The notes under the pieces were generated by a model that was not told the origin of the DNA, ran no database searches, and saw only the letters and a program-made list of their open reading frames with translations. Shown here one piece after another: positions 13,334 through 25,292 of a DNA stretch of 43,301 nt (position 1 is the first letter of the stretch; each line of letters opens with the position of its first letter). The translations under genes and the position numbers were made by a program. The DNA comes from an uncultured Clostridia bacterium (GTDB lineage Bacteria; Bacillota; Clostridia; Christensenellales; UBA1242), in contig CANRCQ010000005.1 in assembly GCA_947629145.1 (NCBI GenBank), forward strand, positions 1 to 43,301, written 5' to 3'.

Positions 13334-13581
13334 ATTTCACGCCAATTTTGCAAAAATATCGATTTTCCGCATATATTTTAATCTAATAAATAGTTTTTTT
13401 CATTCTCTGAGTTAGGCCGATGATATATTTTTACTCTTTAATAATGGTGGTTTTTTCCACAAATCTGCTAGTGGATGATTTTTTTATTATTTTGCTGACA
13501 TGATTTTTGTATTTTGTCGCATAATGTTTCTCTATGCTTATAAAAAAATATGATTTGAGCATAAAAAATTAAAAAAAATAC
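13334..13581. other. Gene-poor AT-rich spacer
   Basis: No convincing gene. There is a weak CCAC/GTGG hairpin followed by a T run around 13459-13495 that might act as a terminator for the 637-aa gene, and otherwise AT-rich sequence up to the promoter at 13582. Confidence 0.5.
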
Positions 13582-13610
13582 TTGACAAACATAATCTTAT
13601 GGTTTATAAT
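13582..13610 (+). promoter_or_regulatory. Consensus promoter of the methylase/HNH operon
   Basis: TTGACA (13582-13587), exactly 17 bases, TATAAT (13605-13610): a full-consensus sigma-A promoter, the strongest in the window by sequence. Such a promoter normally needs repression, which the overlapping dyads supply. Confidence 0.9.
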
Positions 13611-13640
13611 AACCACATGATTTGGTTTTTCATAACCAAA
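13600..13640 (+). promoter_or_regulatory. Two tandem operators, TGGTT-N6-AACCA
   Basis: First dyad at 13600-13615 has arms TGGTT and AACCA with the -10 hexamer as its six-base centre. The second at 13623-13638 has the same arms and extends to TTTGGTT/AACCAAA (13621-13640). Centres are 23 bases apart, about two helical turns, both on or just after the transcription start. Two dimers of one repressor binding here would shut the promoter. The regulator is not identified; the nearby XRE gene has a different palindrome in front of it. Confidence 0.75.
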
Positions 13641-13660
13641 ATTAAAAAAGGAGAGATAAA

Positions 13661-15325
13661 GTGGAAAATAAATTATTTGAATTAAATTCTAAATTAAGAG
13701 GGGTGGTTGCGCCATCGGACATTTATGATACTACACTTGCAATCATGTATTTAAAAAAAATTAGTAATGAACAAAATGAAAGGGATTTTAAAAATGTTTT
13801 TAAAAAAATCAAGGATGAAAACATTAAATTGTTTATTGCAGAACTTTTTGATAAATATAAGTTTTTAGTTAATATTTATGAGACTTTTGATTATGATGAC
13901 AAAAGTGCAACTGAATTTATTGAGAATACATCTAATGAATTTTCTAATTTCATAATGCCAGAAAACACTACTCCAAAATGCCTAATTTCTCTTTGTAAAG
14001 AGTTGTTAAATATAGATAAAGATGATGATGTTCTAGATTTTTGTAGTGGAGATGGGAATTTTCTTTACACAATAGCAAAAAACTGCAAGTGCAAATCATT
14101 GTCAGGAGTTGAAATCAATACACATGCAGTGGCAATATCAAAAATCAAAGCGTATTTGACTGACTCGAACTATAATGTTAGGCAAAATGATGTTTTTCTT
14201 GTTGATAATGAAAAATATTCTAAAATATTTTCAAATTATCCATTTGGTATGCAGATTAGATATATCCATTCAGCAAAAGAATTGGTTAAATCTTTAAAAG
14301 AAGGCAGTTATGGGAATTTAATTTCTGCTGATTGGGCATTCAACTACAAGATATGTAAATTACTTACAGAAAATGGAAAAGCAGTTGTCATTACCACCAA
14401 TGGAACATTAACAAATAATTCAGAAAGGGCGGTTAGGGAATTCTTTTTAAAAAGCGGTTTTATAGAAACAGTTATTTCGTTGCCTGAAAAATTATTTAAA
14501 ACTACAGGAATTCCAGTGAATATCATTGTTTTTAGCAAAAACTGGAAAGATGGTGTTAGATTTGTAGACGCAAGAAATATTTTTGTAAAAGGTCGTAGAA
14601 GTAATGACCTGTCAGATGAAAATATTGAAACAATATTAAATCTTTGCAAAAACGATTCTAATTTAAGCAAAAAAGTTTCATTAGCTGAAATATTTAAAGA
14701 AAATGCTGTATTAAGTCCAGTTAGATACTTGGAAGTCCCTGGCAAGAAAGTGGAAGACGGTATTGAATTTGGCAGTGTCATAAAATCAATTACAAGAGGG
14801 GCTCCATTGTCTGGAAAGGACTTAGATTGTATTATTTCCAATGAAAAAACCGACTTTCAATATTTAATGCTTTCAAATATTAAAAATGGTTTAATAGAAG
14901 ACGAATTGCCTTACTTAAAAAATATTGATAAGAAGCTGGAAAAATATTTAATCAAGGATAAAAACTTGGTTATGTCTAAAAATGGTTATCCTTTTAAAAT
15001 TTCAGTTTTTGAAAAGAAGCATAATAAAGTTTTGGCTAATGGGAATATGTTTGTCATTGAGCTGGATGAACAAAAGGTCAATCCCTACTATATAAAAGTG
15101 TTTTTTGATAGTGAAGCAGGTATAGCCGCTTTAAAATCTATTTGCGGGGGTTCAACCATTCCAAATATAAGTCAAGAATCTCTAAAATCAGTTTTAATTC
15201 CAAATATTTCTTTAGAAGAACAGCAAGAGATAGTCAATAAATACCTTGCAAAAAAAGATGAAATTGAATATTTGAAAAGGCAACTTGAAAAAGCAATAGA
15301 TGGACTCAACCACATAATGGATTAA
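13661..15325 (+). CDS. Fused N6-adenine DNA methylase and specificity (M-S) protein
   Basis: 554 residues from a GTG at 13661 after GGAGAG (13650-13655). Residues about 120-330 are an HsdM-type adenine methylase: motif I DFCSGDGNF near 126 (S-adenosylmethionine binding) and motif IV as NYPFG near 192, where the usual NPPF has Tyr in place of the first Pro. Residues about 360-554 resemble a type I specificity half: a target-recognition region (FGSVIKSITRGAPLSG), the SICGGSTIPNIS segment, then EEQQEIVNKYLAKKDEIEYLKRQL, the conserved helix that spaces target domains. One target domain suggests the protein dimerises or reads a half-site. It is fused, unlike the separate hsdM and hsdS downstream at 18293-21687. 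First gene of a three-gene operon that ends in an HNH nuclease, so it is probably the protective methylase of a restriction system. Confidence 0.8.
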   Translation: MENKLFELNSKLRGVVAPSDIYDTTLAIMYLKKISNEQNERDFKNVFKKIKDENIKLFIAELFDKYKFLVNIYETFDYDDKSATEFIENTSNEFSNFIMPENTTPKCLISLCKELLNIDKDDDVLDFCSGDGNFLYTIAKNCKCKSLSGVEINTHAVAISKIKAYLTDSNYNVRQNDVFLVDNEKYSKIFSNYPFGMQIRYIHSAKELVKSLKEGSYGNLISADWAFNYKICKLLTENGKAVVITTNGTLTNNSERAVREFFLKSGFIETVISLPEKLFKTTGIPVNIIVFSKNWKDGVRFVDARNIFVKGRRSNDLSDENIETILNLCKNDSNLSKKVSLAEIFKENAVLSPVRYLEVPGKKVEDGIEFGSVIKSITRGAPLSGKDLDCIISNEKTDFQYLMLSNIKNGLIEDELPYLKNIDKKLEKYLIKDKNLVMSKNGYPFKISVFEKKHNKVLANGNMFVIELDEQKVNPYYIKVFFDSEAGIAALKSICGGSTIPNISQESLKSVLIPNISLEEQQEIVNKYLAKKDEIEYLKRQLEKAIDGLNHIMD

Positions 15326-15335
15326 GGAGAAGAAA

Positions 15336-15860
15336 ATGCTGGATATTGAAGAAATGGAAAACCTTTACAATCAAGTTATTGAAAAAATAAGGGAAAAAAT
15401 GTTTTTGCTTAATCGAGATGATGACCCAAATAGTCTAATTGATTATTTAAAGGGCATAGGAATGAAAGATATTTTTGCAAGTAATCCAATTTATGAAACC
15501 TACAAAAAAGGAAAAATTGTTATATTTGGGGATTCTGCTGTTGACAAAAATGTGATTTACGGAATTGCAAAAAGTCTGGGGATAGATATAAATAGACTTG
15601 AATTGCATCTAGAATATGAAGAGGCAGTTACATATAATTTTAATAAATTAAGATATGAACCGTCATATCGAGTGGTTTTGGTTGGCCCTATGCCACATAG
15701 CACGGTGGGAAAACAAAAACATAGTAGTGTAATTGCAGAAATGGAACAAGAAGAGGGGTATCCAAAGGTTGTTAGATTGGTCGCTGGGCAAGAATTAAAA
15801 ATCACAAAAACAAACTTAAAGGAAGCCCTTCAAAACCTTCTAAAAGAAAATTACATATAA
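15336..15860 (+). CDS. Small alpha/beta protein of unknown function in the restriction operon
   Basis: 174 residues; AAGGAG overlaps the stop codon of the methylase gene and the ATG follows seven bases later. The N-terminal 45 residues are helical. From about residue 55 strand-helix alternation (KGKIVIFGDSAVDKNVIYG, a helix, then YRVVLVGPMPHSTVGKQK) suggests a Rossmann-like or flavodoxin-like fold with two glycine-containing loops that could bind a nucleotide or phosphate. No catalytic motif that I recognise. A gene of this kind is not part of a textbook restriction system. It may be a partner that couples methylase and nuclease, a sensor, or a nuclease subunit. That it is retained between the two, with tight spacing on the 5' side, is the evidence for a shared role. 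Confidence 0.65.
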   Translation: MLDIEEMENLYNQVIEKIREKMFLLNRDDDPNSLIDYLKGIGMKDIFASNPIYETYKKGKIVIFGDSAVDKNVIYGIAKSLGIDINRLELHLEYEEAVTYNFNKLRYEPSYRVVLVGPMPHSTVGKQKHSSVIAEMEQEEGYPKVVRLVAGQELKITKTNLKEALQNLLKENYI

Positions 15861-15899
15861 GTTGAAATTTAACGATTTTAGTAAAAAAGTGAGGAGAAT

Positions 15900-17540
15900 A
15901 TGAAACGAAGTATATTGTTATTAAATGTTGGAAAATCAATTGAAGAATTTGAAAATGGTTTTTATTTATGTCCAAATAATAAAGACTATTCTTTTAATCA
16001 GAATTTTAACTTTATCGCAGGGCATTATAATAAACAAGTTCAACTTATTGCTGAAATTAGAGCTCGTGGCGTTTTAAAGATAAACAACGGGATTAAAGAA
16101 GTTTCGCTTAATTCTTTTAACATGAAAACAGACAATGAAGAAAATTTAAAACGCGAAATTGAAAAGGCTTTTGATAAAGCGCAAGAGATAAATGTATTTG
16201 ATAGAAGTCAGGAAGCGGAAACTTGTGGTTCTCAGGTTTTTTTATTAAAAAATATTCAGCCATTAAATGCAACTTATACACACGGAAGTTATATTTGGAG
16301 CAAAGTTTACTTAGAAGTTTACTCAGAGCAGAATATCACCATTGAGCTAATAACTTCTCGGCTATATGGAGAAAATTTGAATAAATTAAAGCTGAAGAAA
16401 ATAAACTTAGATGCAATGTCTGTAAAAAAAATTGGCAATATTACAGAACCGCAAGCACAACAAACTACGAAAAAACAAGATTCTAGTTCAACCGAAACAA
16501 TAACGAAGCCACAACAAAAGATTTTGTTCTGCAATATTGGTTGGATGGAGAAATACGAGGGGCCAGACGGAAATAGATTAAAAAGTGGAGGCTCTTATCC
16601 GAAAAGATATGGAACAGGCGGAGAACAATATAATTTTTATGACCATTTAGGTTATTGTTATGGTTTTTTTGAGACCTCTGGAGATAATGTTGCGATTAAA
16701 AGGATAGATAAAAATTGCGACAATGATTTTGTTGACGATGTTTTGGTGGTTTGGGTTGCTAATAATCCTAACGACAATTTTGGAACTAGAATTGTAGGCT
16801 TTTATAATCACGCAACAGTTTATAGACAGATGCAAAAAGATGTAACTATAAATGGATTTGGATATAATGTTAAAGCAGAACAAAAATTTTGTTATTGTAT
16901 TCCCATTGAACAAAGGGAATTTGAGGTGCCAAGACAACAAAAAGGATTTTTTGGTGAAAAACAATTTTGGTATGCAGACGCTGATTCAAAAGAAGTTGTA
17001 GACTATAAAAAAAGAGTAATTGATTATTACAATAAAGAAATTGTTAATAAAAATCACAACCCTATTTCTTCTGTAGACATTGAAGATGCCGATTATCAAG
17101 ACGATGTTAACGAATATATCAATGCTCAACGAAAAATTGAAAACATTATAGATACACCTATAGAAGCCGAATCTGTTTCTGTGGATGCTAAGCAATATGA
17201 AACATATCCAAGAGACCCAGCAAATGCTGCTGCAGCATTGAGAAATGCAAATTATTTGTGCGAGGTTGATAATACTCATAAATTGTTCATAAGAAGAAAT
17301 GGGAAAATTAATTATACTGAATCTCACCATTTAATACCTATGAAATATCAATATAAATTTAAAAACAAATTAGATTGTCCAGCAAATATTGTGTCTTTGT
17401 GTAGTCATTGTCATAATAAATTGCACTACGGAAAAGATATAAAAGATGAGTTAACTTATCTATATCAACAAAGGAAATCAAGATTAGAGGCTGCGGGGAT
17501 AAGTATTACACTAGAAGAATTGTTTAACCTATATAAATAA
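15900..17540 (+). CDS. HNH endonuclease with an N-terminal putative reader domain
   Basis: 546 residues, ATG 15900 after GAGGAG. The C-terminus holds an HNH/beta-beta-alpha-metal nuclease (residues about 453-511): C-E-V-D opening, SHHLIPM with the catalytic His, then NIVSLCSHCHNKLHYG with zinc ligands and the final His. Residues about 208-335 form a separate domain starting FCNIGWMEKYEG and including GFYNHATVYRQM; such domains precede HNH nucleases and may recognise DNA or a modified base (PUA/EVE-like), which I infer from arrangement only. A further N-terminal domain (1-200) is unassigned and is followed by a Gln/Thr/Ser-rich linker near 180-205. Third gene of the operon with the fused methylase. 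It is most simply the restriction nuclease; a modification-dependent nuclease is the alternative. Confidence 0.8.
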   Translation: MKRSILLLNVGKSIEEFENGFYLCPNNKDYSFNQNFNFIAGHYNKQVQLIAEIRARGVLKINNGIKEVSLNSFNMKTDNEENLKREIEKAFDKAQEINVFDRSQEAETCGSQVFLLKNIQPLNATYTHGSYIWSKVYLEVYSEQNITIELITSRLYGENLNKLKLKKINLDAMSVKKIGNITEPQAQQTTKKQDSSSTETITKPQQKILFCNIGWMEKYEGPDGNRLKSGGSYPKRYGTGGEQYNFYDHLGYCYGFFETSGDNVAIKRIDKNCDNDFVDDVLVVWVANNPNDNFGTRIVGFYNHATVYRQMQKDVTINGFGYNVKAEQKFCYCIPIEQREFEVPRQQKGFFGEKQFWYADADSKEVVDYKKRVIDYYNKEIVNKNHNPISSVDIEDADYQDDVNEYINAQRKIENIIDTPIEAESVSVDAKQYETYPRDPANAAAALRNANYLCEVDNTHKLFIRRNGKINYTESHHLIPMKYQYKFKNKLDCPANIVSLCSHCHNKLHYGKDIKDELTYLYQQRKSRLEAAGISITLEELFNLYK

Positions 17541-17881: not shown

Positions 17882-17911
17882 AGTCATTTCAACTTTGAAA
17901 TGACTTTTTAT
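17882..17911 (+). terminator. Rho-independent terminator before the type I operon
   Basis: Perfect ten-base stem AGTCATTTCA / TGAAATGACT with an ACTT loop and TTTTTA tail. It insulates the XRE-hsd operon from transcription out of the HNH operon. Confidence 0.85.
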
Positions 17912-17920
17912 TAAAAACAT

Positions 17921-17949
17921 TTGCATTATTAATTTTAATATGCTATTAT
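17921..17949 (+). promoter_or_regulatory. Promoter of the XRE-hsd operon
   Basis: TTGCAT (17921-17926), 17-base spacer, TATTAT (17944-17949), immediately followed by the palindromic operator at 17952. Confidence 0.7.
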
Positions 17950-17951
17950 AT

Positions 17952-17973
17952 AAATATGTTAGTTAACATATTT
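17952..17973 (+). promoter_or_regulatory. Palindromic operator of the XRE regulator
   Basis: AAATATGTTA-GT-TAACATATTT, a perfect ten-base inverted repeat with a two-base centre, placed at the expected transcription start and 12 bases before the XRE start codon. Position and symmetry fit autoregulation by the dimeric XRE protein it precedes. Confidence 0.75.
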
Positions 17974-17985
17974 ACAAGGTGAATA

Positions 17986-18303
17986 ATGAAAAATAATGCA
18001 TTTGGAAGATATTTAAATAAATGTAGAGGAAAGACAAGCTTGCAAAAACTTGCCGATTTTTGTGATTGCTCAAAACCTTATTTGTGGGACATTGAACAAG
18101 GCAACACTAAGCCGCCGCAAAATTATCAAAGATTAAATGATATTGCAGAGTGCTTAAACTTATCAGATGAACAGCGTAGGAAATTGTTTGATTTGGCTTG
18201 TGATAAAGATGATATACCGTTGGATGTTAAAGAAATCATAAGACAAAATCCGAAGTGGATAAATAAAATTCGAAATGAAAAAGGAGATAATTATGACAAA
18301 TAA
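17986..18303 (+). CDS. XRE-family (Cro/C1-type) regulator of the type I locus
   Basis: 105 residues. A helix-turn-helix lies at about residues 17-60: LQKLADFCDCSKPYLWDIE is the two-helix core, followed by the typical EQGNTKPP and a stabilising helix pair. Length and position match controller (C) proteins of restriction-modification systems and short phage-type repressors. It is the first gene of the operon, has a palindrome over its transcription start, and its 3' end overlaps the hsdM start by 11 bases, so it is co-expressed with the methylase. The expected role is to time or limit expression of the system by binding its own operator; this is inference from arrangement. Confidence 0.8.
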   Translation: MKNNAFGRYLNKCRGKTSLQKLADFCDCSKPYLWDIEQGNTKPPQNYQRLNDIAECLNLSDEQRRKLFDLACDKDDIPLDVKEIIRQNPKWINKIRNEKGDNYDK

Positions 18304-20398
18304 TAAAGTTTTAGATACAATGTGGGATGACAATCCTATCGATGTAACACAGGAGGCGAATTTTATCTGGTCAATTGCTAATAAATTGAGAGGATCTTAT
18401 ATGCCTGATAAGTATGGGGATGTTGTCATTCCAATGACTATTCTAAGAAGATTGGAATGTGCGTTGGAATCTACAAAAGACAAAGTAATTAAAGCCTATA
18501 AAGAGAACCCATCATTTCCTGCAAAAGCATTTTATAGAATATCGGGATTCCAATTTTATAATACAAGCGAATATTCCCTTAAAGAATTGTGCAATGATCC
18601 AAATCATATAGCTGACAATTTTAAGAACTATATCAACGGATTTTCTGATAATGTTAAAGAAATATTTAATGAATTAGAAATGAATAAACACATTGACAAG
18701 ATGGATAAAGATGGATGTTTGTATATTGTTGTTGAAGCGTTCTCAGACTTGGATTTAAGTATAAAAACTTATGATAGCATCAAAATGGGATATATCTTTG
18801 AACACCTTATCGGCAAGTTTTATCAAAATGTTGATGCTGGGCAATTTTATACAGGACGAGATATTATAAAGTTGCTTGTTGAGATTCTTATGGCAGAAGG
18901 TTGTGATGATATTTTTGATAATAGAAAAGTTATCACTGTATGCGATCAGGCGTGTGGGACTGGTGGTATGCTTTCAACAGCATATAATTATATAAAACAT
19001 TATAATCCTACTGCTGATGTAAAATTATTTGGACAAGAATTTATGGGCCAGTCTTATGCGGTTGGTCTTGCTGAAATGCTTATTAAAGGACAAGATGCAG
19101 AAAATTTTAAACATCAAGACACTTTTAAGGCGGATTGTTTCAAAGATATAAAAATGAGATTTGTTATAGAAAATCCACCTTTTGGAACGCCATGGGCAGG
19201 CAAAGATGCTAAGGAAGGACAGGAGAAAGCGGTTAGAGAAGAAGCTCTCAAGGGTGAAAATGGACGCTGGGGACATGGTCTACCTAGTGGAGGTGATTCA
19301 CAATTTATATTTATGCAATCAGCCATTGATAAAATGGCTGATGGAATTGGGCGTGCGGCTATTATCGAAAATGGCTCACCACTTTTTACAGGCGGGACGG
19401 CCTCTGGCGAAAGTCAAATTAGAAGATGGATGTTAGAAAAAGATTTAATTGAAGCAATTATTGCCTTGCCAACAGATTTGTTTTACAACACCGGAATTCA
19501 AACTTATGTCTGGATATTGTCTAAAAACAAACGACCAGAGAGAAAGGGCAAGATCCAACTTATAAATGCAGCAGATATATACCATAAATTGCGCAAAGCA
19601 GCAGGCAACAAGAAGAACGAAATTAAACCAGAAGACAGAAAAAAGATAACGCATCTTTATGCCGATTTTGTTGAAAATAAAAATTGTAAGATATTTAAAA
19701 ATGAAGAGTTTTTATATAAAGAATACACCGTAATGCAGCCACTTCAAAGAAGTTATGCAATAACGGAAGAACGTATTGAAAATATGATTACAAAAGGCTC
19801 ATTGTCTTATATTTATGATGAGGGAAAAGTTTTTGAATTTGAAAACAAATTAGAACCATTAACGGATAAAGAAAAGAAAAAGCTTGAAGAGTATTATAAG
19901 AACAAACCTACATACGATAAAATTTTAGAAACTTTAAAAACCGGTATTGATAATAAAAAATATTACAAACTTTCTGAATTCGAACCTGTTATTTCTAATG
20001 TGTTGAAAGATTTTGATAAAAGGATTGTGGATAAAGTTATTGATGGATTGTCAGAAATGGACAAGAAAGCTGAAATTCATAGAGATAAAAAGGGAAATAT
20101 AATTTACGATAAAGAATCAAAAGACACTGAAATTATTAAATTTGAAGAAGACATAAACGAATATATGGCTCGCGAGGTTTTGCCACATATTCCTGATGCA
20201 AAAGCTTTTTTTGAAGGCAAAAGCGAAACTGCAACTTGGGAGGAGGACAATGGCGAAAAAGTTATAAAAATTGGTGCTGAAATACCATTTACGAGATATT
20301 TCTATGAGTATAAACAACCAACTCCAAGTGAGGAATTGCTTGCTAAATTTCAGGAACTAGAAAAACAAGTTCGCGAAAAAATCAACGAATTGTTTTAG
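18293..20398 (+). CDS. hsdM: Type I restriction-modification methylase subunit
   Basis: 701 residues. ATG 18293 is used because AAGGAG (18281-18286) lies six bases upstream; an in-frame ATG at 18275 precedes that site. The N-terminal HsdM helical domain (FIWSIANKLRGSYMP...ILRRLE) is followed by the N6-adenine methylase core: motif I ACGTGG near residue 218 (S-adenosylmethionine) and motif IV NPPFG near 293 (target adenine). It transfers a methyl group to adenine in the sequence chosen by HsdS, as part of the M2S and R2M2S complexes. Typical HsdM proteins are about 500-530 residues; this one has a C-terminal extension of charged helices (about residues 480-701) characteristic of a longer subfamily. 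Overlaps the XRE gene and precedes hsdS by 11 bases. Confidence 0.9.
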   Translation: MTNNKVLDTMWDDNPIDVTQEANFIWSIANKLRGSYMPDKYGDVVIPMTILRRLECALESTKDKVIKAYKENPSFPAKAFYRISGFQFYNTSEYSLKELCNDPNHIADNFKNYINGFSDNVKEIFNELEMNKHIDKMDKDGCLYIVVEAFSDLDLSIKTYDSIKMGYIFEHLIGKFYQNVDAGQFYTGRDIIKLLVEILMAEGCDDIFDNRKVITVCDQACGTGGMLSTAYNYIKHYNPTADVKLFGQEFMGQSYAVGLAEMLIKGQDAENFKHQDTFKADCFKDIKMRFVIENPPFGTPWAGKDAKEGQEKAVREEALKGENGRWGHGLPSGGDSQFIFMQSAIDKMADGIGRAAIIENGSPLFTGGTASGESQIRRWMLEKDLIEAIIALPTDLFYNTGIQTYVWILSKNKRPERKGKIQLINAADIYHKLRKAAGNKKNEIKPEDRKKITHLYADFVENKNCKIFKNEEFLYKEYTVMQPLQRSYAITEERIENMITKGSLSYIYDEGKVFEFENKLEPLTDKEKKKLEEYYKNKPTYDKILETLKTGIDNKKYYKLSEFEPVISNVLKDFDKRIVDKVIDGLSEMDKKAEIHRDKKGNIIYDKESKDTEIIKFEEDINEYMAREVLPHIPDAKAFFEGKSETATWEEDNGEKVIKIGAEIPFTRYFYEYKQPTPSEELLAKFQELEKQVREKINELF

Positions 20399-20409
20399 GC
20401 GGTGACAAT

Positions 20410-21687
20410 ATGATAGAAATGAAAGATAGTGGAATAGGATGGATTTGGAAAATACCAAAGCATTGGGAGATTATGAAAGTAAAAGATGGCTTTTACAGAA
20501 AAAAGGCTAAGGCTTTACAAGAGGAACCTGTTGTCTTATCTCTTGCAAGAGATGGAGTAAAAATTAGGGATATTTCTACTAATGAAGGCCAGCTGGCTGC
20601 AAGTTACTATGAATACAATCCAGTAACTATAAATGACATGTTGTTAAATCCCATGGATATACAAAGTGGAGCCAATTGTAGCATTTCCAAAGTAAACGGG
20701 GTAATAAGTCCTGCATACATTAATTTAAGATACAAAAAGGGCTTTAATCCTAAATTTTATGATTATTATTTTAAATATCAATATTGGTCATATGCTTTTT
20801 TTACATTTGGTAAAGGTGTGTCATACGAGAACAGATGGACTCTAAATGAAGATACGCTCATGAATTTCCCATTACTAGTTCCCGCCAAAAGTGAACAAGA
20901 TATTATTGCTGATTATTTAGATAAAAAATGTGCGGAAATCGATGAGATAACATCGAATTTACAAAACCAAATCGATATTTTAGAAAATTATAAGAAGTCA
21001 GTTATTGCAGAAGCTGTAACAAAAGGATTAAATCCTAATGTTGAAATGAAACAAACAAAAGTTCTGTGGATAACCAATGTTCCAATGAGTTGGGGGCTGA
21101 AAAAAGGGAAGTATTTGTTTAAAATTAGAAACTCTAAAGGGAACAAAACAAATCTTGAATTATTATCTCCAACGCAAAAATATGGTGTTATTCCTCAAGA
21201 AATGTATGAAAAACTTACAAAACAAATAACAGTAAAAGTAAACGAAAAAACTAATTTGAAATCCTTCAAAACAATACATAAAGGCGATTTTTGTATAAGT
21301 TTAAGAAGCTTTGAAGGAGGTTTTGAATTTTGCAATTATGAGGGTGTTGTTTCGCCAGCATATACTGTTTTTTTCCCGAAAGTAGAATGCTGTCGACAAT
21401 ACTATAAATATTTATTTAAGATTGATGTGTTTATCTATGAAATGAATTCGTATGCCTTAAGTCTAAGGGATGGAAAGCCTATATCATTTGAAGATTTTGG
21501 TCAAACATACTTGCCTGTACCGTCAATCAAAGAACAAAAAGAAATTGCCGATTACTTGGACAAAAAGTGTGCGGAAATTGATGATATAATAAAAATTAAG
21601 AAAGAGCAGTTGACTACAATTGAAGAATACAAGAAATCTTTAATTTATGAATATGTAACAGGCAAAAAGGCGGTTGTTGATGATTGA
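20410..21687 (+). CDS. hsdS: Type I restriction-modification specificity subunit
   Basis: 425 residues with two target-recognition domains and two conserved helical spacers, the standard HsdS design that reads a bipartite sequence. Domain 1 begins SGIGWIWKIPKHWEI and domain 2 begins near residue 216 (VPMSWGLKK). Each ends in the same helix: DYLDKKCAEIDEI near 171-184 and DYLDKKCAEIDDI near 383-396, preceded by E-Q-x-x-I-A. The two helix-coding segments (20911-20950 and 21550-21589) are near-identical in DNA, giving room for recombination that would swap the second domain. It forms a complex with HsdM. A GGTGA sequence is close before the ATG. Its stop overlaps the next gene's start. Confidence 0.9.
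   Translation: MIEMKDSGIGWIWKIPKHWEIMKVKDGFYRKKAKALQEEPVVLSLARDGVKIRDISTNEGQLAASYYEYNPVTINDMLLNPMDIQSGANCSISKVNGVISPAYINLRYKKGFNPKFYDYYFKYQYWSYAFFTFGKGVSYENRWTLNEDTLMNFPLLVPAKSEQDIIADYLDKKCAEIDEITSNLQNQIDILENYKKSVIAEAVTKGLNPNVEMKQTKVLWITNVPMSWGLKKGKYLFKIRNSKGNKTNLELLSPTQKYGVIPQEMYEKLTKQITVKVNEKTNLKSFKTIHKGDFCISLRSFEGGFEFCNYEGVVSPAYTVFFPKVECCRQYYKYLFKIDVFIYEMNSYALSLRDGKPISFEDFGQTYLPVPSIKEQKEIADYLDKKCAEIDDIIKIKKEQLTTIEEYKKSLIYEYVTGKKAVVDD
20911..20950 (+). repeat. hsdS direct repeat, copy 1
   Basis: About 40 bases coding for the first spacer helix, repeated at 21550-21589 with a small number of mostly third-position differences. Confidence 0.75.
21550..21589 (+). repeat. hsdS direct repeat, copy 2
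   Basis: Second copy of the spacer-helix coding segment at 20911-20950; both include TGTGCGGAAAT and GATGA. Confidence 0.75.
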
Positions 21688-22297
21688 TAGAATTATTGAG
21701 GAAATTTTTGTTTGCTTAAACAGTAATTGCTTTTTAGCCGCGCTTTCAACAGCATTAACTTTGCCGGATATATGCGGCAAGGCTGAATACGGAGATATAC
21801 AGACTACTAAAAGATATATCAAATGGTTTGATAAATATATAGGAGATTTTGAAAACTCAAGTAGTCAAAATGCAGATATGCCATACTTGTCTGGGAAAAT
21901 TGTTTATGACTTGAGAAATAATGCTTTGCATGCTGGAACTTTCAGTATAAATGGAGAGAAACAAGACATACAAAATTTTGAATTGTTAGTTCAAGAACCA
22001 AACCGTGCAATTCTTTCAGGGAGCAGTGCACAAATCGCCACATATTATGACGGCGACAATGTTGTAAGAAAGGAACGGACCCTGTGCATAAATATAACAG
22101 ACTTAATTTTGAAACTATGTGTTGTGGCTAAAAGTTATTATAATGAAAATAAAGATAAATTTAAATTTATTACTAGTTCGATTGCCACTGTGGATAATCA
22201 AACAAGGCAAAAGTTTCAGATAAAAGAACCATTATTATATAACGAAACATTCAAATTAGACAAAGATAAAACGACTACGAAATGGTATTTAATATAA
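21680..22297 (+). CDS. HEPN-like protein inserted between hsdS and hsdR
   Basis: 205 residues from ATG 21680, inside the last codons of hsdS; in-frame TTGs at 21674 and 21677 are less likely. The first 100 residues are predicted helical and contain R-N-N-A-L-H (Arg79 to His84), the R-x4-H motif of HEPN ribonucleases, in the usual helix context (KIVYDLRNNALHAG). The C-terminal half is mixed strand and helix without a motif I know. HEPN proteins include toxins and anticodon nucleases triggered by phage, such as PrrC and RloC; PrrC is encoded within a type I restriction locus and is held inactive by it. This protein lacks the ATPase domain of PrrC, so it would be a simpler analogue. Many HEPN-like proteins are inactive, so activity is unproved. 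Confidence 0.6.
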   Translation: MIDRIIEEIFVCLNSNCFLAALSTALTLPDICGKAEYGDIQTTKRYIKWFDKYIGDFENSSSQNADMPYLSGKIVYDLRNNALHAGTFSINGEKQDIQNFELLVQEPNRAILSGSSAQIATYYDGDNVVRKERTLCINITDLILKLCVVAKSYYNENKDKFKFITSSIATVDNQTRQKFQIKEPLLYNETFKLDKDKTTTKWYLI

Positions 22298-22313
22298 TAA
22301 AAAGAGGTGCAAA

Positions 22314-25292
22314 ATGAACAAAATTTTATCAGAAAAAGAATATCAGAAATTTATATTGGATATTTTAGAAAAACAAAATGGTTATAGAATTCGAAAGAAT
22401 GTGAAATATGACCGTCTTTTTGCAATGGACAAGGAAATATTGTTCGAATTTTTAAACGCATCTCAGCCAAAAGAAATGGAAGCATTAAAAAAGATTTATA
22501 GAGATGCTACCGAAGAAACTATTGTTAACTACATTAATGCCGATATCACAAATCCAAGAAAGGGCTTATTATATGTTTTAAAGCATGGCGTGGATTTGAC
22601 AAATTACCATTTAAACTTAATGTACACAAAACCGGCAACGGATTTTAATGAGGAATTGATAAAAAAATATCAAACAAATATTTTTTCGGCCATGGAAGAG
22701 GTGTGGATAAGTGATGAAGAAAGAATTGATGTTGTGCTGTTTTTAAATGGCTTAGCCATAATATCTTTTGAGTTAAAATGTAATTATGCTGGGCAATCTT
22801 ATCAAGATGCAATCTATCAATATAGAACACAGAGAGATTATAAAAACAGGCTATTTCTATTTAATGCAGGTTGTTTAGTTAATTTTGCGATGGATTTACA
22901 AGAAGCTTATATGACAACCAAACTAAATGGCGAGAACACATTCTTTTTGCCATTTAATATGGGCAGTGGAGAGGGCATTAACGCAGGTAGAGGCAATCCT
23001 ATTTTTAAAGACAAATATTCCGTTCACTACATGTGGGACGATATTTTAACAAAAGATACAATTCTTAGTCTTATAAATGAATTTATTTTTATTGAACACA
23101 AAGAAGAAGTGGATGAACTTACAGGCAAAACAAAGGTAAAAGAAAATATAATCTTTCCAAGATATCATCAATTAGATGTAATAAGGAAAACGTTGGCTGA
23201 CCTACAAATTAATAAAACTAGTCAAAACTATCTTATCCAACATAGCGCAGGCTCTGGGAAAACAAATTCAATTGCTTGGCTTGCGCATAGATTAACATCA
23301 TTGCATGACAATGAGAACAAAATTATTTTTGATAATATTATTATCTGTACTGACCGTGTTGTTGTTGACAGGCAATTGCAAGCAGCAATAATAGGTATGG
23401 AGCATAAATCGGGGGTTATTAAGGTGATGGACGACAAATGTTCATCTGCCGATTTAAAAACAGCACTTGAAAGCAATGTGAAAATTATTGCCACCACAAT
23501 TCAAAAGTTTCCTTATATTGTGGATTCAGTTAATAACATGAAGACAAAAAAATTTGCGGTTATTATCGATGAGGCGCATTCTTCCACAGCGGGCAAAGAT
23601 ATGGCTGCAATAACAAAGACACTTGGCTCGGGAGAGGTTTCGATAAGTGAAGATGGTGTTTATGACGCCGAAGATATGATTGTTGACGAATTGGCGAGAA
23701 ATGGAAAGCAATCAAATGTTTCTATGTTTGCTTTCACTGCGACACCAAAGCCTACAACACTAAACTTGTTTGGCAGGGTAAACAAAAAAGGGCAGAGAGA
23801 GGCTTTTCATTTATATTCCATGAAGCAAGCTATAGAAGAAGGCTTTATTATCGATGTTCTAGAAAATTTCACAGAATATAAAACTTATTACCAAATCAAT
23901 AAAGAAATTTCAGAAGATCCAAGATGTAAGACTGTTGACGCTAAAAGGCAAATAGCACGATTTGTTGAATTGCACGAAACTAACATTGCACAAAGAGTTG
24001 AAGTAATTGTTGAACATTTTAGAACTACGGTAATAGACGAATTGGGTGGAATGGCTAAAGCAATGGTTGTCACGGCTTCAAGAGCAAGCGCAGTCAAGTA
24101 TAGACAAGCTTTTGAAGATTATGTGAACAAGAAGGGCTATACAAATATTCATGCATTAGTAGCCTTCTCAGGTAAGGTGAAATTACCAGATGATGATAAA
24201 GAATATACAGAAAGCGGCATAAATGGTTTTTCTGAAGAAAAACTTCCAAAAATGTTCGACAGTGACGCCTTTAATGTTTTACTTGTTGCGAACAAATATC
24301 AAACAGGGTTTGATCAGCCAAAATTATGTGCTATGTATGTCCTTAAAAAACTTAGAGGGGTGAATGCTGTCCAGACTTTTTCAAGATTAAACAGAATTTG
24401 TCCTCCATTTGAAAAGAAAACATTCATTCTTGATTTTGTTAATACTTATGAAGAGATTGTCGATGCGTTTAGCCCATATTACACTACAACATTGTTGGCA
24501 AATTCAGTTTCTCCTAATTCTGTATATGAGTTAGAGGCAAAAATTGATGGGTATATGATTTTTGACCCATACGATATCGATGTATCTGCAAATATCATCT
24601 ATAAGAAAAATATAGATGCCCGTGACAAAAAACAACTTACATTTTATTTACAACGAGCAGAACAAAAAATACACCAATTTGACTTATTGAAACAAATAGA
24701 AATAATGGCTGTGGTTAAACACTTTGTAAGATTTTATGAGTTTTTGATACAAGTATCTTGTTTCGAAGATGTTGACCTACATAAGAAATACCTATTTTTA
24801 ACATATTTTATGTCGTTTGTAAATATCAAAAACCCAGGCGGCGGATTTGATTTAACTGGCAAAATTAAGGCTTCAAATTTTTTACAAAAGAAAGAAGATG
24901 AAGATAAGAAAGAAAAGCTGATAGCTTATCCTATTGTAAAATTGCCAACCGCCGATACATTCAACCTAACCGAAGATAAAATCAAACATCTCTCAGAAAT
25001 TATTGCAGAAATCAATAGTAGAACAGGCAAAAGCTATGATAATGATGTCGCTATAAAAGCCATGTTACAAATAAAAGATTTACTTATGAAATCAGAAAAA
25101 TTAAAGGAAAGTGCAAAAAACAACACACAGAAAGACTTTGAATTTTCATATTTTGACGACATTGACGATGCCTTGGTAGAGGGATTATCGCAAAATCAAG
25201 ATTTCTTCTCACTTTTATTAAATAATCCAGATATGAAAAAAGAAGTTATGGGAATATTTATGAGCGAAATATATAAGGAGCTAAGAAAATGA
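22314..25292 (+). CDS. hsdR: Type I restriction endonuclease subunit
   Basis: 992 residues, ATG after AGAGGTG. N-terminal nuclease domain: RIDVVLFLNGLAIISFELK (about residues 136-155) is the PD-(D/E)xK active site with Asp and E-x-K. Helicase/translocase: Walker A HSAGSGKT near residue 308-315, DEAH (IIDEAHSS) near 417, motif III FAFTATP near 473-479, and motif VI region QTFSRLNR near 693. The C-terminal quarter is the helical HsdM-binding part. It cuts unmethylated DNA after ATP-driven translocation within an R2M2S complex. All motifs are present, so the locus seems intact. Last gene of the operon, followed directly by a terminator. Confidence 0.93.
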   Translation: MNKILSEKEYQKFILDILEKQNGYRIRKNVKYDRLFAMDKEILFEFLNASQPKEMEALKKIYRDATEETIVNYINADITNPRKGLLYVLKHGVDLTNYHLNLMYTKPATDFNEELIKKYQTNIFSAMEEVWISDEERIDVVLFLNGLAIISFELKCNYAGQSYQDAIYQYRTQRDYKNRLFLFNAGCLVNFAMDLQEAYMTTKLNGENTFFLPFNMGSGEGINAGRGNPIFKDKYSVHYMWDDILTKDTILSLINEFIFIEHKEEVDELTGKTKVKENIIFPRYHQLDVIRKTLADLQINKTSQNYLIQHSAGSGKTNSIAWLAHRLTSLHDNENKIIFDNIIICTDRVVVDRQLQAAIIGMEHKSGVIKVMDDKCSSADLKTALESNVKIIATTIQKFPYIVDSVNNMKTKKFAVIIDEAHSSTAGKDMAAITKTLGSGEVSISEDGVYDAEDMIVDELARNGKQSNVSMFAFTATPKPTTLNLFGRVNKKGQREAFHLYSMKQAIEEGFIIDVLENFTEYKTYYQINKEISEDPRCKTVDAKRQIARFVELHETNIAQRVEVIVEHFRTTVIDELGGMAKAMVVTASRASAVKYRQAFEDYVNKKGYTNIHALVAFSGKVKLPDDDKEYTESGINGFSEEKLPKMFDSDAFNVLLVANKYQTGFDQPKLCAMYVLKKLRGVNAVQTFSRLNRICPPFEKKTFILDFVNTYEEIVDAFSPYYTTTLLANSVSPNSVYELEAKIDGYMIFDPYDIDVSANIIYKKNIDARDKKQLTFYLQRAEQKIHQFDLLKQIEIMAVVKHFVRFYEFLIQVSCFEDVDLHKKYLFLTYFMSFVNIKNPGGGFDLTGKIKASNFLQKKEDEDKKEKLIAYPIVKLPTADTFNLTEDKIKHLSEIIAEINSRTGKSYDNDVAIKAMLQIKDLLMKSEKLKESAKNNTQKDFEFSYFDDIDDALVEGLSQNQDFFSLLLNNPDMKKEVMGIFMSEIYKELRK

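Follow-up and report, generated by a model that had tools for sequence, protein, structure and literature searches.

We analysed a 43,301-nucleotide stretch of DNA from an uncultured Clostridia bacterium (contig CANRCQ010000005.1 of assembly GCA_947629145.1, positions 1 to 43,301; hereafter the window), which carries three closely spaced plus-strand genes behind a consensus promoter and, downstream of them, a type I restriction-modification (R-M) system. The first gene, here called MS (13661-15325, GTG start, 554 aa), joins an HsdM-like N6-adenine methyltransferase to half of a specificity subunit, and is followed after a 10-bp gap by a gene that we call mid (15336-15860, 174 aa) and, after a further gap of 39 bp, by a gene for an HNH protein of 546 aa (15900-17540), a putative cargo gene. 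The sigma-70 promoter of this unit (13582-13610, plus strand) reads TTGACA-17-TATAAT and agrees with the consensus at 12 of 12 positions; it is the sole perfect match in the window, where three matches with at most one mismatch were found against 0.79 expected. Two exact inverted repeats, to which no strand is assigned, accompany it: operator 1 (13600-13615, TGGTT-TATAAT-AACCA), whose 6-bp spacer is the -10 box, and operator 2 (13623-13638, TGGTT-TTTCAT-AACCA), 23 bp beyond operator 1 and immediately 3' of the expected transcript start. The first-pass annotation of this DNA had described an unusual locus with just these closely spaced genes, a consensus promoter and tandem operators, and the open reading frames (ORFs), the promoter match and the two exact repeats were all verified; the operators, which it mentioned only in passing, proved to be the key feature.

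Within the window taken alone, sites of the operator type were not above chance (3 with one mismatch allowed, against 2.43 expected), and shuffled versions of the upstream region contained recurring palindromic pairs with 5-bp arms in 38 of 300 cases, so the significance of the operators comes from comparison across loci and not from window statistics. We therefore rely on 36 MS loci, found via mid or via the M-S fusion, or represented by the window, plasmids, and one viral contig (single loci are cited by L number), with four rows dropped as duplicate contigs (L027, L028, L029, and L077, which equal L043, L058, L046, and L066). Operators were sought in 500 bp of DNA per locus, the stretch 200-700 bp ahead of the motif I codons of MS; 34 loci entered the count, L088 and L089 were added later, outside the 34, and L034, whose contig carries only the 3' end of MS, has no upstream DNA. 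Five loci (L031 and L084-L087) were set apart as having a diverged target recognition domain (TRD; identity 0.19-0.27 to that of the window), a split between related (at least 0.34) and diverged loci that was chosen after a first look at the sites.

Of the 29 loci with a related TRD, 27 have an exact GGTT-N6-AACC before MS, all 29 have a copy with one mismatch or none, and 27 have at least two such copies. The upstream DNA (14,500 bp) contains 51 exact sites, and a further 511,014 bp from these loci contain 8 (a 225-fold difference in density); 200 Markov shuffles gave a mean of 0.12 and a maximum of 2. Half-sites separated by 6 bp account for these 51, and gaps of 2-5 and 7-12 bp for 0 or 1 each. 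When sites were masked, the upstream DNA fell into 22 mutually dissimilar groups, 21 of which hold an exact site, and shared ancestry of the flanks is therefore no explanation. Over all 34 loci an exact operator was found in 27, or in 24 when the stretch was narrowed around ORF starts; none of the five diverged-TRD loci has one (Fisher p = 8e-5), and these five contain a single one-mismatch site in total. The number and spacing of operators differ between loci, and the promoters upstream of MS match 9 to 12 of 12 consensus positions in the 29 loci scanned. In the window, L056, L078, and L088 an operator has TATAAT as its spacer, and in L044 TATGAT; TTGACA falls inside the spacer in L045, L047, L048, L049, L051, and L053, and other operators lie upstream or downstream of the promoter hexamers. 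Separately, MS genes of Lactococcus plasmids, which have a different TRD and no mid, carry TAGTAT-N5-ATACTA twice upstream (L084:8790-8955 and L087:8475-8640), and in L084 hsdS genes and a XerA-type recombinase follow MS.

Where MS and mid recur, the usual order is MS-mid-HsdM-HsdS-HsdR, often with hsd genes directly 3' of mid. With the viral contig excluded, HsdM, HsdS or HsdR is encoded downstream in 26 of the 29 loci that have at least 4 kb after MS (they are missing in L048, L076, and L086), and mid lies within 600 bp of MS in 25 of the 33 loci with that much DNA, counting L076 and L078, where it has an in-frame stop. Those without mid within this distance are L049, in which a weak mid-like ORF lies further downstream, L061, L083-L087, and L089. 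In the contexts read, a stand-alone mid of ~175 aa follows the M-S fusion in L027, L028, L029, L031, L034, L076, L077, and L078. The search with the M-S fusion yielded 25 loci from genome contigs, which by record title belong to several lineages, mainly Lachnospiraceae, Oscillospiraceae, and other Clostridia, and further Selenomonas, Erysipelotrichaceae, Treponema, Succinimonas, Olsenella, other actinobacteria, Kiritimatiellae, and a metagenome-assembled genome labelled Planctomycetales; we take these titles to represent several phyla. The distribution of mid is patchy: including the window's own copy, it was found in 3 of 101 genomes of relatives, in 11 of 396 of the order (three-row profile, weakest E 8e-4), in 2 of 291 of the class, and in 7 of 299 of the phylum, where three of the seven matches have E values of 8e-5 to 6e-4 and broken frames. 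On a Salimicrobium plasmid (L085:8247-16922) the operon runs DUF2325, MS, a 151-aa protein, HsdM, HsdS, HsdR.

The description of the first gene as an N6-adenine methylase joined to a single specificity half was borne out, with N6_Mtase as the best Pfam match (E 3e-39) and one Methylase_S stretch (E 2e-6). In a structure model of MS (mean predicted local distance difference test score 87.7), N-terminal helices precede a methyltransferase domain, a single TRD, and a single long C-terminal helix. In the PDB the model matches gamma-class methyltransferases: first an enzyme of Vibrio vulnificus whose crystals contained the DNA mimic Ocr, then PacII, further type I M subunits, CamA, and TaqI. Neither a nuclease nor a motor domain matched MS, except for the methylase part of Eco57I below its cut-off, and the model shows none in the chain, so that MS was rejected as a single-chain type IIG or type ISP enzyme. 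The best PADLOC match is the mad2 model (E 2e-30); membership in MADS was likewise rejected, since NCBIfam MAD2 gave 30 bits against 720 and MAD5 40.1 against 400.

Specificity domains are ordinarily the variable part of type I systems. In MS the TRD has mean pairwise identity of 0.546, as compared with 0.380 for the M part, in a set that was mostly fetched with TRD patterns and is hence biased towards this domain (L059 and L063 were excluded from the MS domain identities). In the same set, with length floors of 140 aa for mid, 400 for HsdM, 300 for HsdS, and 700 for HsdR, mid averages 0.425 (21 sequences), and at the MS loci HsdM averages 0.261 (18), HsdS 0.185 (15), and HsdR 0.269 (14). In nine loci found via mid and not via the TRD, this domain again ranks first in conservation within MS, at 0.415, with the C-terminal part at 0.342 and the M part at 0.288. 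A TRD that is frozen where specificity domains usually vary suggests that MS reads a fixed site.

We consider it likely, from sequence comparison, that MS and mid form a conserved autoregulatory module of type I systems in which MS would act as a homodimeric, methylase-derived autorepressor at GGTT-N6-AACC. From the observed gene linkage, operator conservation, co-occurrence of operator and TRD, motif IV departures, and predicted folds, we infer that MS binds, dimerises, and represses, and likewise the functions assigned to mid and the HNH protein. The pair, a widespread addition to type I systems and not a system of its own, would be the regulatory head of an expanded operon, MS-mid-HsdM-HsdS-HsdR. 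Paired via their C-terminal helices, two MS molecules would make a symmetric clamp of the M2S kind that reads GGTT-N6-AACC. One to three of these sites lie at a near-consensus MS promoter, over its -10 box, over its -35 box, or just up- or downstream. Bound there, MS would block transcription and thus exert negative feedback on a strong promoter; where MS is scarce, as on entry into a new host, or is removed, the operon would fire.

Whether MS might instead be an enzyme turns largely on its catalytic motifs. The canonical motif IV is N, D or S, then P-P, then an aromatic residue; the window protein has NYPFG, as the first-pass annotation had it, and this departure proved to be a family trait, because the motif is canonical in 2 of 29 MS proteins, whereas at MS loci all 18 HsdMs with a length of 400 aa or more have NPPF or NPPY. 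Across the 29 proteins residue 2 is Y in 19 and residue 4 has lost its aromatic character in 8, which counts against a rival in which MS is mainly an active adenine methyltransferase of fixed specificity and the methylation state of the promoter sites, not their occupancy, sets the promoter. That rival, which we judge unlikely, draws on a mostly intact motif I, on an N or D at residue 1 of motif IV in 27 of 29, and on the strength of the N6_Mtase match, and the N or D that is mostly kept also led us to reject the departures as proof of inactivity. The site itself speaks on both sides: gamma-class type I methyltransferases are reported to modify a top-strand base in the 5' half-site (PMC3874165), and the invariant GGTT of that half offers neither A nor C, which fits a protein that binds but does not methylate, though 42 of the 51 exact sites have A at position 5. 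The whole genome of the window has just four exact sites, two of them at the MS promoter, which again sits poorly with a methyltransferase.

It is improbable, in our assessment, that the operators are bound by a protein other than MS, either mid or an unlinked regulator, with MS a mere neighbour. Such a role would suit mid in that it too is conserved and has a receiver-like predicted fold, but L049, L061, and L083 carry MS and exact sites with no mid within 600 bp, the viral contig L088 likewise has operators without an adjacent mid, and six mid loci without MS hold 1 site in ~69 kb. Because operators occur without mid, mid-only loci are nearly free of sites, and loci with a diverged TRD lack exact operators, MS is the likely reader, and symmetric half-sites with a 6-bp gap fit a half-S dimer. 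The proposal of the first-pass annotation, that the three genes make up a restriction or phage-defence system of their own in which MS methylates, the HNH protein cuts, and mid couples the two, we regard as very improbable even though the genes are adjacent and a terminator-like hairpin in the window parts them from hsdM, for the HNH family follows MS in the window only (1 of 36 loci), hsd genes follow it in nearly all loci with sufficient DNA, so that neither the single system nor its independence from the adjacent type I genes survived the synteny comparison, and the closest relative of the N-terminal part of the HNH protein lies near a type I operon without MS. A type II R-M pair of MS and HNH was rejected on the same rarity of the pairing.

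The middle gene, which the first-pass annotation could not place, is conserved and matches no named family, and nothing in Pfam, NCBIfam or PADLOC matched it at E values up to 1. Its predicted fold consists of N-terminal helices and a CheY/flavodoxin-like alpha/beta domain with a GPxPHS motif, and on this model mid is probably a Rossmann-like partner of MS and a sensor of a small ligand or nucleotide, whose binding would modulate MS or relay a signal. Clear membership in DUF2325 was rejected, since PF10087 does not match the window protein at E values up to 10 and is absent from the 15 families listed for 11 members; profile-profile comparison with DUF2325 (hhalign) gave a probability of 32%, with strand 1 and the H motif aligned. 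Mid-like domains also occur in other settings: as fusions with a UvrD-like helicase, as fusions with helical proteins whose neighbours are helicase-like or unknown genes, or next to a very large helicase (L032:5860-8328, L030:7644-8744, L079:588-1814, and L024-L026), and these forms perhaps constitute a second kind of system.

The third gene was correctly recognised as an HNH nuclease (Pfam HNH, E 2e-5). Its C-terminal residues 425-523 resemble EcoKMcrA (PDB 6ghc, E 5e-8), and PADLOC matches the protein to mREase_IV (E 2e-9), while the N-terminal part matched no solved structure and no curated family above cut-off, including any for a modified-base reader, in the searches made (residues ~1-420), and one NCBIfam sigma-factor match to residues 370-419 fell far under its cut-off. 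By its sequence the protein is probably a modification-dependent nuclease that would cut modified invader DNA. The nearest relative of the N-terminal part (in genome G068) is encoded two genes after the MS-less type I operon. The protein at L035:9443-11443 is ~40% identical to the N-terminal 380 residues and has a different C-terminus; its gene stands second after a type I operon in which HsdM is encoded twice. We read the HNH gene as one of several exchangeable cargo genes driven by the same promoter as MS, because it is confined to one of the 36 loci and four other loci carry other inserts: an AbiJ N-terminal domain (L043:15213-16040), a DUF4435 ATPase (L044:15666-17291), a RelA/SpoT domain (L054:16814-17833), and a DUF1016/YhcG nuclease (L067:13924-15339). 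Five operon inserts of MS-mid loci were inspected in all, among them the window's own 207-aa protein.

That protein (21674-22297) lies between HsdS and HsdR in the type I system of the window, exceeds no curated family cut-off, and is possible cargo. The system itself (18275-25292, all genes on the plus strand) has an HsdM with the canonical NPPF (18275-20398), an HsdS with two Methylase_S stretches and hence two TRDs (20410-21687), and an HsdR with an HSDR_N nuclease and a SWI2/SNF2 motor (22314-25292), as a type I R-M system should, and hsdM is preceded by the gene of a 105-aa helix-turn-helix (HTH) regulator (17986-18303, plus strand). Because the HNH gene intervenes, together with a weak terminator-like hairpin 3' of it (17882-17905, plus strand, 10-bp stem, T tail) and a weak promoter-like site (17920-17949, 9 of 12 consensus positions), the MS-mid-HNH and HTH-hsd parts may be transcribed separately here; in the scans before HTH-HsdM the site counts were about those expected by chance, with 2 terminator-like hairpins against 1.5 expected. 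By this promoter-like site a palindrome, ATGTTA-GT-TAACAT, lies at 17920-17985, possibly a second, separate operator for the HTH protein.

An IMG/VR contig (L088:1-8435) has a lone MS with three exact operators and a consensus promoter, and was the sole match when the composite promoter-operator pattern was run over all viral contigs. Downstream of its MS lie phage genes, among them those for an HNH protein and a terminase small subunit; genes for a ParB-methylase and a PAPS reductase are also nearby, and neither mid nor any hsd gene was detected in the 6.4 kb after MS. It is possibly a phage-borne copy of the regulator, with host DNA at the contig edge as the alternative. As a tentative extension of the autorepressor proposal, one to which we would give only a small chance, MS might serve as a guard by virtue of its likeness in shape to type I methyltransferases: factors by which invaders disable type I enzymes, namely DNA mimics (Ocr, ArdA), destruction of S-adenosylmethionine, or site flooding, would also strip MS from its operators and so fire the operon and its back-up cargo (the HNH nuclease and the AbiJ-like, RelA/SpoT-like, and DUF4435 proteins). 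Mid would then be a second input or a relay, and some phages would answer with a lone MS and the same operators.

Several known systems resemble parts of this arrangement. RptR is a small repressor that controls type I R-M islands via repeated palindromes overlapping the -10 box, and shares with MS its place as first-gene repressor of a type I island, palindromes over the -10 box, joint conservation of regulator and sites, and another defence system embedded in the operon; it is a small four-helix protein that binds TAGCTA and whose conservation is reported for Gammaproteobacteria, whereas MS is a proposed 554-aa fusion with a bipartite site in several phyla (PMC12255303). An RptR-regulated island was rejected for the window, where no TAGCTA repeats overlie the -10 box (13560-13660, by reading of the sequence) and a single copy lies by 17712, off this promoter. 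M.Ecl18kI inhibits its own gene by binding at a promoter site, even without methylation (PMC3695355), and with M.SsoII has a methyltransferase gene bearing a regulatory site in its own promoter, as MS has an inverted-repeat site; those proteins are cytosine-5 enzymes with an N-terminal regulatory region, while MS is of the gamma N6-adenine type and its specificity domain appears to read the operator. Engineered type I fusions of M to half S have the same architecture as MS, dimerise, and are active as methyltransferases and, with HsdR, in restriction; they are artificial, whereas MS is natural, departs from the usual motif IV, keeps its TRD conserved, and lies beside separate hsd genes (PMC6158711). 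PacII-type systems also have two different M proteins within one type I system, but there a single S subunit serves both M1 and M2, which retain NPPF or NPPY, while MS has its own half S (PMC9613975). As an autorepressor, MS would work like RptR and M.Ecl18kI but belongs to neither family.

We found no description of the MS-mid module or of its operator in the open-licence literature searched. To our knowledge, little is known about how type I systems and other defence operons are controlled, and the description of RptR dates only from 2025 (PMC12255303). In the present case a fusion of methylase and specificity parts appears to have become a transcription factor that reads a type I-style bipartite site, and it has been kept together with its operator in several phyla, which would offer a natural case of a restriction-enzyme recognition domain that is frozen instead of variable. 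The prediction is directly testable, as protein, DNA site, and promoter are all specified, and the locus also draws attention to mid, a conserved protein that as yet has no name, and to a possible phage-borne copy of MS.

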